Positions 11,961 through 14,695 of a stretch of 64,000 nt of DNA are shown here, one piece after another; the stretch's first letter is position 1; each line of letters begins with the position of its first letter. The stretch is from Phycisphaerae bacterium (GTDB taxonomy: Bacteria > Planctomycetota > Phycisphaerae > Phycisphaerales > SM1A02). The position numbers and the translations under genes were made by a program. The stretch spans positions 124,001 through 188,000 of the forward strand of contig JAEUIU010000066.1 of NCBI GenBank assembly GCA_016795065.1. The letters run 5' to 3'. Under the pieces are notes generated by a model. The model worked only from the letters and a program-made list of their open reading frames with translations. It ran no database searches and had not been told where the DNA came from.

Positions 11961-12920
11961 TTAGACAAGGAACAGCACGTCCCTCGCCTCGACCGCAGTG
12001 CGGCCGTCGGCGATCGGCTGGAGCGAGCCGTTGGCATCGGGACGGACCGAGCGATAGCCCTCGGGAAGGAGCGAGCGGAAGCGATCGAACTGGTCCGGTG
12101 TGTTGAACTCGACGAAGAGTTGCGGCCGGTCGTGGCGGATGGTCTCGAGCCCGCCTTCCAGCACCTCGCACTCGTGGCCCTCGACATCGATCTTGATGAA
12201 GTCGATGCGCCCGAGGCCGCCAGGAGAGGAACGGGCGAGTTCGTCGAGGGTCATCAGCGGCACCCGAATCGTCTCGCCGCCGTGGGGCGTCGGTCCATCG
12301 AGGCGGTTCGCCCCGCAGTGACCGCGATCAACGGTGAAGGCCGCTTCGCCTCGACGGTTGGAGAGGGCGCAGCGCTTCACGTCGATGTGCCTGAGTGCGC
12401 TGGACATGACGTTGCGTTCTAAGCGCTCGGCCGTCGCCGGCGTCGGCTCGAAGGCAACCACCCGCCGGAAGAAGAGGCCGGCGGTCAGGGTGTGGAAGCC
12501 GACGTTGGCCCCAACGTCGAGCATGGTCCGTCCTCGCCCCTCAAAGCCAGCGAGAAGTCGGGTGAGCCGCACGGTCGGGTTCCTGAGGAGGTACCCGCAC
12601 TCGGGGCTCTCGGCCAAATCAAGCTCCATCGAGAAGCGCTTGCCTCGCAGCGTGAAGTGCACGTCCTTGCGGGCGGAGTCGCCCAATGCCCGAGCGGCGG
12701 AGGCTTCCCAGAGGATCGACCAGAAGACGCTTGGGAGACCCGGGTCGCGGCGCTCCTGTTCGAGTTGACGGTCTAGGTCGACGGTCAGGCCGTCGGGGAT
12801 CGCACGCAGGAAGTCCAGGTCGAGTTCTTGCAGATGCCGCCCGAGCATGCCGGCGACCATCCCGCGAAATCGCGGCGATTGCATGGCACGTTCAAGGAGC
12901 GGGCGGAGAAGTCGTCGCAT
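11961..12920 (-). CDS. FkbM-family SAM-dependent methyltransferase
   Basis: About 319 residues from the ATG at 12920 (MRRLLRPLLERAMQS). A longer start at 12971 would overlap the divergent gene. The SAM-binding core is MLDVGANVGFHTLTAG, followed by VVAFEPTPATAERLERNV, and the FkbM signature is RIDFIKIDVEGHECEVLEGG with PQLFVEFNTPDQFDRF. FkbM enzymes O-methylate sugars, polyketides or other small molecules; the acceptor here is unknown. It is convergent with the type III PKS and 3' ends nearly touch. A role in modifying the polyketide is possible but not shown by operon structure. Confidence 0.88.
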   Translation of the reverse strand: MRRLLRPLLERAMQSPRFRGMVAGMLGRHLQELDLDFLRAIPDGLTVDLDRQLEQERRDPGLPSVFWSILWEASAARALGDSARKDVHFTLRGKRFSMELDLAESPECGYLLRNPTVRLTRLLAGFEGRGRTMLDVGANVGFHTLTAGLFFRRVVAFEPTPATAERLERNVMSSALRHIDVKRCALSNRRGEAAFTVDRGHCGANRLDGPTPHGGETIRVPLMTLDELARSSPGGLGRIDFIKIDVEGHECEVLEGGLETIRHDRPQLFVEFNTPDQFDRFRSLLPEGYRSVRPDANGSLQPIADGRTAVEARDVLFLV

Positions 12921-12955
12921 CAGGGAATGGGTCCGCGGGCTGGTACGATCGAACC

Positions 12956-14695
12956 ATGCCGCGAGCGGCACGGTATCGCAATCCTGCCTTTGAGGAGTTG
13001 GAGCGCCAGCTCTTGTTCGCGCCGCCCGATGCCCTGCGCCGTCAGATGGACGCGGCCGAGCGGCTGGCCCATGAAGTCGAGGACGAGGCGACCTATCCGT
13101 TCGAGTTCGTCGTCTGGCGACTCACCGGCTTTCGGGCCGAGGACGCCGCCATCAAGCCGATGGACGGCTTGACCTTGCGCGGCGATCTTGCAACGTTCGT
13201 CCTGCACGCGTCGGAGCGGATCCTCATCACCCATGACGAGCGGCCCGGGGGTGCGGTGGCCCTGAGCGACCTCGCCGATGAACTGGGGGTGACCGAAAAG
13301 ACGCTCCGACGATGGCGGAACCGCGGGCTCGTCGCCCATCGCATCGAGCTCGCCGATGGGCGAACCCGAGTCGGTGTCTTTCGCGATGAGGTGGAGCGAT
13401 TCACCGCTCGCTACGGCGAACTCGTCGGAGATGCCAAGACCTTCTCGCGCATGGGCGGGGAAGCGGAGACCGCCGCCGTCGCTCGGGTCCGTGAGTTGGT
13501 GCGGGCCGGCCGCTCGCCGAACCTCGCGGCGAAGGCGGTGGCGGTCGAACTGAGTCGTTCCCACGAGACCATTCGACAGCTCCTCCTCCGAGCGGGCATC
13601 CAGTTGGGCAATACACCCGTCGGGCGGAAGAGCGAATCGCCGGGCAGGCAAGCTGGTCGCGGTCGCGAACGGTTTTCGCGGCGTGCCCTCGATCGCTCGG
13701 CGTGGGAACGTCGCTTGGCCTTTCGGGCGTGGCGCTTCGGCGTCGCCGTCGAGCGGATCGCTGAGGCCAGCGGGACATCAGTCGATGCGGTGCGTCGGCG
13801 GATCGACGCGGTGCGGGCCGAGCGCCTGCGGGCGATGCGGCTGTCGTGGATCGAGTTCCCGACGTTCGAACGGCCGGATGCGGCGGAGACGATTCTCGCC
13901 GGCGAAGCGGCTCGATGCGACCTCGCCCCCATGCTTGAACCGGCCGATGTCGTTGGCATGCTCGCCCACCTCAAGCAAGGACGCTGGCTTTCCGGCGGCC
14001 CGACGACCACCACCGCTGCGCCGGGTCAATTGGAGTCGGCCGACGAGGCGATGCTGGCCGCCTACAACTTCCTGAAGCGAGAAGCCCGCCACGGGATTGT
14101 CGAGCTGGGAAAGGCGCCGGCCCGAGCGGACATCGATCGCATCGAGACCGATTTGCGCTGGGCCCTGCGGCTCAAGCGGCGCCTCGTTGAGCGCATGCTG
14201 CCGTTGGCGTTGCTGCGGGTCGAGCAGGGGAGTGGCGGCCCGATGGACCGTCGACCGGCCGAGGAAGTCCGGTCACTTCTTCAGCGCTGCGTCCACCTCA
14301 TTTCTGAGGTGATCGAGTCGGTGGATCCAGCGAAGCGGCAGACGCTGCGGCGCCTCGTCGCCTTGGACACCGACCGCATGCTGGCCCAGCTCAGCTCCGT
14401 CCGCGGCACGCGAGCCGGCGTGCGCCACGAGCCGGGCACGATCGCCATGCGCGGCCTCTTCGATGGGGTCGTCGGATGGGCCGACGTGGTGGATCCCTTC
14501 GCCGCCTTGGCCCCGAGTGCCGCCCGGCTCCCCAAGGAGCACGCGTCCCTCCTCGCTCGCCGCTACGGCTGGGACGGCGCGCCGCCAGCCACGCTTGAGG
14601 CGCTCGCGGCGACCGAACGCACCACCGTCGCCCGCATCACCGCCCGCACCGCTGTTGCGGAACGCCTGCTTCGGGCGATTCGCCGCGGCGCTTGA
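12956..14695 (+). CDS. Multi-HTH protein with sigma-70-like C-terminus
   Basis: About 579 residues; ATG at 12956 (MPRAARYRNPAFEELE). I do not know a named family for it. A MerR/excisionase-like winged HTH is visible at about residues 100-150 (LADELGVTEKTLRRWRNRGL). Two further homeodomain-like segments follow (SPNLAAKAVAVELSRSHETI and VAVERIAEASGTSVDAVRRR). The C-terminal half reads like a divergent sigma-70: AAYNFLKREAR and LRLKRRLVERMLPLALLRV recall region 2, and LPKEHASLLARRYGWDG with LEALAATERTTVARIT recalls region 4. Aromatic and acidic residues needed for promoter melting are poorly preserved. It may be a degenerate sigma factor or a DNA-binding regulator built from one. It diverges from the FkbM gene. 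Confidence 0.6.
   Translation: MPRAARYRNPAFEELERQLLFAPPDALRRQMDAAERLAHEVEDEATYPFEFVVWRLTGFRAEDAAIKPMDGLTLRGDLATFVLHASERILITHDERPGGAVALSDLADELGVTEKTLRRWRNRGLVAHRIELADGRTRVGVFRDEVERFTARYGELVGDAKTFSRMGGEAETAAVARVRELVRAGRSPNLAAKAVAVELSRSHETIRQLLLRAGIQLGNTPVGRKSESPGRQAGRGRERFSRRALDRSAWERRLAFRAWRFGVAVERIAEASGTSVDAVRRRIDAVRAERLRAMRLSWIEFPTFERPDAAETILAGEAARCDLAPMLEPADVVGMLAHLKQGRWLSGGPTTTTAAPGQLESADEAMLAAYNFLKREARHGIVELGKAPARADIDRIETDLRWALRLKRRLVERMLPLALLRVEQGSGGPMDRRPAEEVRSLLQRCVHLISEVIESVDPAKRQTLRRLVALDTDRMLAQLSSVRGTRAGVRHEPGTIAMRGLFDGVVGWADVVDPFAALAPSAARLPKEHASLLARRYGWDGAPPATLEALAATERTTVARITARTAVAERLLRAIRRGA

Follow-up and report, generated by a model that had tools for sequence, protein, structure and literature searches.

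The window analysed here, a stretch of 64,000 nucleotides, carries on its forward strand an open reading frame of 579 aa that starts with an ATG at 12956 and ends with a stop codon at 14693-14695. The same frame stays open upstream of this ATG as far back as 12686, and the start at 12956 is matched by the relatives, which open with MPRxARY. The features of the gene and the evidence on which each was delineated are as follows.

12956..14695, + strand: whole gene (579 aa and stop), a three-HTH front end joined to a degenerate sigma-70 core.
12956..13240, + strand: N-terminal helical domain, residues 1-95 (alignment, model, Pfam).
13247..13411, + strand: HTH 1, winged and MerR/excisionase-like, residues 98-152 (Pfam, alignment, model).
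13451..13597, + strand: HTH 2, homeodomain-like, residues about 166-214 (Pfam matches of relatives, alignment, model).
13598..13684, + strand: linker, residues 215-243, predicted to be disordered (model, alignment).
13685..13831, + strand: HTH 3, residues 244-292, resembling HTH_23, Mor and sigma-4 HTHs (NCBIfam, relatives, model).
13943..14395, + strand: sigma 1.2-2-like domain, residues 330-480, with the fold retained and the functional residues of regions 2.2, 2.3 and 2.4 lost (VIA-align, residue table, hhalign).
14135..14164, + strand: D..ETDLRWA-type motif, residues 394-403 (alignment).
14396..14479, + strand: linker, residues 481-508, at the position of sigma domain 3, a domain that is also absent in the canonical relatives.
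14480..14692, + strand: sigma 4-like domain, residues 509-579, with the -35 recognition residues replaced (family profile against RpoD sigma 4, residue table).

The gene is present as a single copy in its own genome. Its closest relative in the named genome collection lies in a Phycisphaerae MAG (L001), and the protein extracted from L003 (G026), a relative of the same genus, equals that of L001 in length and identity. A search of the plasmid collection returned partial matches only, with no record reaching 80% query coverage. Next to the gene, a divergent open reading frame recognised by eye as an FkbM-type methyltransferase occupies 11961-12971 on the minus strand of the window, so that, as listed, the starts of the two genes overlap by about 15 nt. 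Translation of the FkbM-type frame probably begins further inside, which would leave a very short promoter region shared by the two genes.

The front end spans about 300 aa; the AlphaFold model of the whole protein has a pLDDT of 90.5. The earlier note had proposed a MerR/excisionase-like HTH and two further HTH-like segments in this half, and all three were recovered. A Pfam match to MerR_1 covers residues 103-142 at 22.4 bits, the gathering score being 21.6, and the model places a helix-helix-wing-helix arrangement over residues 103-152. HTH 1 is the most conserved part of the protein (T116, R119, R121, G124 and L125), with T116, R119, G124 and L125 invariant across the family in the alignment. 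The second and third segments were modelled at about 166-214 and 244-292; the former corresponds to HTH_23/HTH_28 in relatives and carries a conserved GRS.E.(I/V)R, and the latter lies over an NCBIfam match of the window protein to TIGR02989 (residues 251-288, E 1e-4). The linker between them has a pLDDT below 50 at residues 219-243 and is gapped in relatives, which points to a partly lineage-specific insertion. A conserved stretch within residues 1-95, YP(F/Y)EF..(R)(I/L)TG(Y/F), had no match in Pfam. Besides, the first 80 residues of the front end, and no more of it, are matched at G572:C93:34137-34382 and G637:C154:24623-24865, inside frames of about 380 aa from a different planctomycete family, in which this domain may have been put to a use of its own.

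The C-terminal half had been read by the earlier note as divergent sigma regions 2 and 4, and the two motifs it quoted fall on regions 2.1 and 4.1: 'LKRRLVERMLPLALLRV' aligns to sigma region 2.1, where homologues read NLRLVVSIAKRH, and 'LPKEHASLLARRYGWDG' aligns to region 4.1, where homologues read LDEREQKIIIRRFGLD. With the window protein searched as a single sequence, Pfam placed no sigma domain significantly in the C-terminal half and phmmer returned no matches to PDB. Absence from single-sequence searches (Pfam, NCBIfam, PDB) was not counted as evidence, the sigma signal lying below any single-sequence threshold; family profiles and structure are needed to bring it to significance. With 46 relatives from the same order combined in a profile, RpoD sigma 4 in PDB was matched at E 5e-8, and the sigma 2 segment was collinear but weak (2.8 bits). 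The comparison with sigma factors that the earlier note had suggested was carried out with hhalign, in which a profile of the C-terminal half from families f1 (that of the window), f2 and f5 of the order matched the RpoD of the window genome, together with two more sigma factors, with 97.9% probability and E 3e-12, the reversed control giving 0.08%.

The predicted fold pointed the same way. All 50 best PDB rows in a VIA-align comparison of the model were sigma factors; residues 330-484 were superposed on sigma 1.2-2 of sigma70 with an rmsd of 3.0-3.4 over about 132 residues and a Z of about 9, and the rows that extend to residue 579 include sigma 4. A Z of 9 is by itself modest for a helical protein, and the sigma assignment rests on the uniformity of this list together with its agreement with the sequence profiles. 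The top Foldseek matches were also sigma factors, but none had an E-value <0.001; a different arrangement of the domains in the model accounts for the low pairwise TM-scores. Fold markers R536, G538 and P544 are retained in the sigma 4-like domain. Residues 330-579 therefore have a sigma-70 fold that comprises 1.2-2 and 4 and lacks domain 3; the match is significant at profile level and the fold distinct from other HTH families. By homology the protein belongs to the sigma-70 family, with both folds, region 2 and then region 4, in place.

The survey of orthologues in Phycisphaerae, likewise suggested beforehand, found the gene in 369 of the 397 class genomes sampled (93%), in 141/151 genomes of the family and, by a front-end profile, in 90/392 genomes of the phylum. 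It is nearly always present in one copy per genome across these sets, and almost all relatives have an uninterrupted full-length frame. Elsewhere in the class and phylum, beyond the window's order, the same front end is joined to an intact sigma-70. These intact relatives reached E-values down to 8e-22 for Sigma70_r4 and 1e-13 for Sigma70_r2 in Pfam, about 1e-40 against RpoD-type models, with scores below the RpoD equivalog cut-offs, and 2e-34 against PDB SigA; a model of one of them (L058) gave Z 14-15.5 against sigma70. Canonical relatives measure 553-568 aa with a pI of 8.9-9.6. Domain 3 (PF04539) was absent from all ten homologues scanned, and no region 1.1 was seen in homologues. On this domain make-up the family is a phylum-level sigma family with a putative DNA-binding front end of its own, the second of the two alternatives raised in the earlier note, which thereby holds for the relatives outside the window's order. 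In such an ancestral form, persisting elsewhere in the class and phylum, region 1.1 would have been replaced by three HTH modules and domain 3 would be missing; a specific site upstream is probably recognised by the front end, and regions 1.2, 2 and 4 would engage the promoter and core RNA polymerase, which would unite activator and sigma in one chain.

Within the window's order the sigma features are lost in a clade-specific manner. Clades were scored with region 2 and region 4 profiles built from intact phylum members. The other lineages of the class and phylum scored 57-150 bits for region 2 and 11-124 bits for region 4, family f3 of the order was intermediate (44-78 and 11-66 bits), and f1, f2 and f5 reached at most about 5 bits for region 2 and at most 27 bits for region 4. 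Orthologues in f4 (L073, L087-L093) are about 490 aa long with region 4 undetected, and this family appears to represent a stage of sigma loss that is either independent or intermediate. At residue level, the E, R, Q and E of region 4.2 and the SDGN, FSTY and W of regions 2.2/2.3 are near-invariant in phylum members and largely retained in the rest of the class (the W in 69%). They are mostly retained in f3 and lost in f1, f2 and f5; SDGN, FSTY and W are also largely lost in f4. The lost positions are those which, by E. coli sigma70 numbering, we take to serve -35 recognition, core binding and melting/-10 recognition: f1, f2 and f5 lack the residues expected of a functional sigma-70 at the core-binding positions of region 2.2 and the melting/-10 positions of regions 2.3/2.4, and the -35 residues of region 4.2 (E, R, Q, E) are replaced.

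A tree of the front end placed the entire order on one side (100/100) and joined f1, f2 and f5 in one clade (95/95), with f3 and f4 outside it; the order of f3 and f4 was unsupported either way. This topology fits one conversion before the split of f1, f2 and f5 and a separate or earlier change in f4.

The loss of sigma features did not extend to the gene itself. C-terminal dN/dS in the converted families was 0.04-0.31, similar to that of the front end; dS was near saturation in most pairs, the most reliable values coming from the close pairs L020/L021 and L030/L031 (0.19-0.23). The converted clade also has a near-invariant D..ETDLRWA motif of its own, in which D394, E397, T398, L400, R401 and A403 are invariant or nearly so and which, on alignment evidence, demonstrates a conserved role for the C-terminal half. 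From the low dN/dS and this motif, the gene is judged to be maintained under purifying selection and not decaying. A decaying pseudogene, which the progressive loss of sigma features within the order might suggest, is very improbable given a C-terminal dN/dS well below 1, a full-length open frame in nearly all relatives and a single copy retained in 93% of the class genomes sampled.

The same conservation could be claimed for a protein that is still a working sigma factor, its regions 2 and 4 having diverged to suit a new class of promoters and the HTH front end supplying specificity. The 1.2-2 and 4 folds are retained, the C-terminal half is constrained, and the canonical relatives already deviate from housekeeping sigma factors at some positions of region 2.4, reading WAIMKNFA where sigma70 usually has WWIRQAIT. 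Loss of the signature residues is no proof that core binding was lost, and a divergent sigma factor could use altered contacts. We nevertheless regard this explanation as unlikely, as the losses of SDGN (N-terminal part of region 2.2), FSTY/W (region 2.3) and R/Q/E (region 4.2) come together and the sister family f4 is without any region 4.

The genome of the window encodes 36 ordinary sigma region 2 proteins, a canonical RpoD included, so that sigma function in general is covered; the window protein is not among them. PF04539 occurs at three other loci of this genome and not at the 12956-14695 gene. Many members of the order have mqnA, recognised by eye, immediately 5' of the gene and in the same orientation, the distance being mostly about 35 nt or less (L077-L086, L088-L094, L132, L133, L136), an adjacency that spans four families of the order and some of f1. 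MqnA is the chorismate dehydratase of the futalosine pathway. A functional tie to mqnA was considered and judged not to be essential, since the window genome has no match at all to the MqnA family yet keeps the gene. In Planctomycetia-like relatives tuf lies downstream.

A fold retained while its DNA-contacting residues are lost would also suit a sigma mimic, by analogy with PhyR of Alphaproteobacteria, in which a sigma fold is reused outside transcription initiation. The C-terminal half would then sequester an anti-sigma, another sigma factor or RNA polymerase, and the HTHs would be secondary. PhyR is a precedent for such use of a sigma-like domain, though there an ECF-type mimic is joined to a receiver domain, whereas the present protein carries a relic of 1.2-2-4 type fused to HTHs. 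Against a mimic stand the strong conservation of the front-end HTHs across the family, with invariant positions in HTH 1, and the neighbourhoods of the relatives, where no conserved anti-sigma or kinase gene stood out. We consider it slightly less likely still than a working sigma factor.

A block 5' of the gene is conserved amid diverged surroundings in nine g345 genomes and three of g323. In g345 it has the form TGTGAACTTTTT-N11-CGTCT-N6-CGTA, and all seven genomes tested (6-8 Mb) have a single occurrence each of TGYGAACTTTTT-N(8-14)-CGTCT, always 5' of the gene, with 0 occurrences of the reversed pattern used as a control. Genera g480, g374 and g492 also have the element 5' of the gene, reading GTTCGCATGCGAACTTTTTT or close to it; in total, five genera, all of one family, carry GTTCGCATGCGAACTTTTT..CGTCT..CGTA ahead of the sigma gene (L145-L153, L158-L160, L125/L198, L196, L199). 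In a wider search other matches were located elsewhere and several genera were without the element, and the window gene's own upstream region did not rank with the best-scoring ones. The element may be an operator for the HTHs, implying autoregulation, or a promoter, or, in some genera, a terminator-like signal, the last being suggested by its palindromic core followed by T.

No description of this three-HTH and sigma architecture was found in the open-access literature searched, in agreement with the earlier note, whose author knew of no such family. The protein shares regions 1.2, 2 and 4, in the same order, with RpoD/SigA-type (group 1/2) factors and differs from them in that the family is without detected region 1.1 or domain 3, has about 300 aa of three HTHs in front and, in the window protein, has lost the promoter-contacting residues. 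It is no housekeeping RpoD, as PF04539 is missing and even the canonical relatives score below the RpoD model cut-offs. The winged HTH at residues 98-152 resembles MerR/excisionase proteins (HTH_17), but the protein has neither the coiled-coil dimerisation helix nor the effector domain of MerR regulators, and the HTH is internal and followed by two more HTHs and a sigma fold. MzaA, the sigma-70 protein of the MZA anti-phage system (NF041931), was the top NCBIfam model for several canonical relatives and likewise has a long front part, the model being 726 aa; the best-scoring stretch is, however, limited to the sigma 1.2-2 region (model positions about 414-545), the scores of 64-164 bits lie far below the 800-bit cut-off, and the window protein gave no match to NF041931.

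Lineage-specific sigma factors are known in planctomycetes as ECF factors with Ser/Thr-kinase or WD40 links, which belong to group 4, whereas the family described here has region 1.2 and an HTH front end. WD40-linked planctomycete sigma factors are mentioned in PMC8567305, and a study of essential genes in P. limnophila describes the housekeeping sigma factor as essential (PMC10632474). In Rhodopirellula baltica, RB12251, a 567-aa 'RNA polymerase specialized sigma factor' with a pI of 9.4, is repressed by heat, cold and salt together with ribosomal genes (PMC2754498). Similar in length and pI, RB12251 is possibly the R. baltica member of the family.

Taken with the residue losses, we favour, with a probability of roughly two in three, a planctomycete sigma factor with a DNA-binding front end that was converted in the window's lineage into a DNA-binding regulator no longer melting promoters. 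In that lineage the sigma half has kept its fold, and its residues for promoter melting, -35 recognition and the usual core contact are gone. The window protein would now most likely be a sequence-specific DNA-binding regulator acting through HTHs 1-3, with the old sigma half reused for dimerisation or protein docking and possibly contacting RNA polymerase in a non-sigma way. The earlier note had raised a sigma factor turned regulator without melting; the loss of the residues in f1, f2, f4 and f5 and the purifying selection support the first part of this idea, and the regulator role is our reading of them.

A sigma factor is the RNA-polymerase subunit that finds and opens promoters; as a rule it is a different protein from the DNA-binding regulators. 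We put forward more tentatively, at appreciably lower confidence, that in much of the planctomycete phylum the family acts as a self-activating sigma factor whose HTHs sit on a gene-specific operator, its own upstream element, while the sigma core initiates transcription, and that in one order it became a free-standing transcription factor through a series running from intact, through no region 4, to full residue loss. If so, this lineage-wide fusion of sigma factor and regulator would be a distinct route to a promoter-specific holoenzyme, and the window's order would hold a stepwise record of the loss of sigma function while the gene is retained. The intact, intermediate (f3) and degenerate orthologues allow direct comparison in vitro. 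The gene is near-universal in the class, yet in the window's family standard profile searches do not reveal it as a sigma factor.
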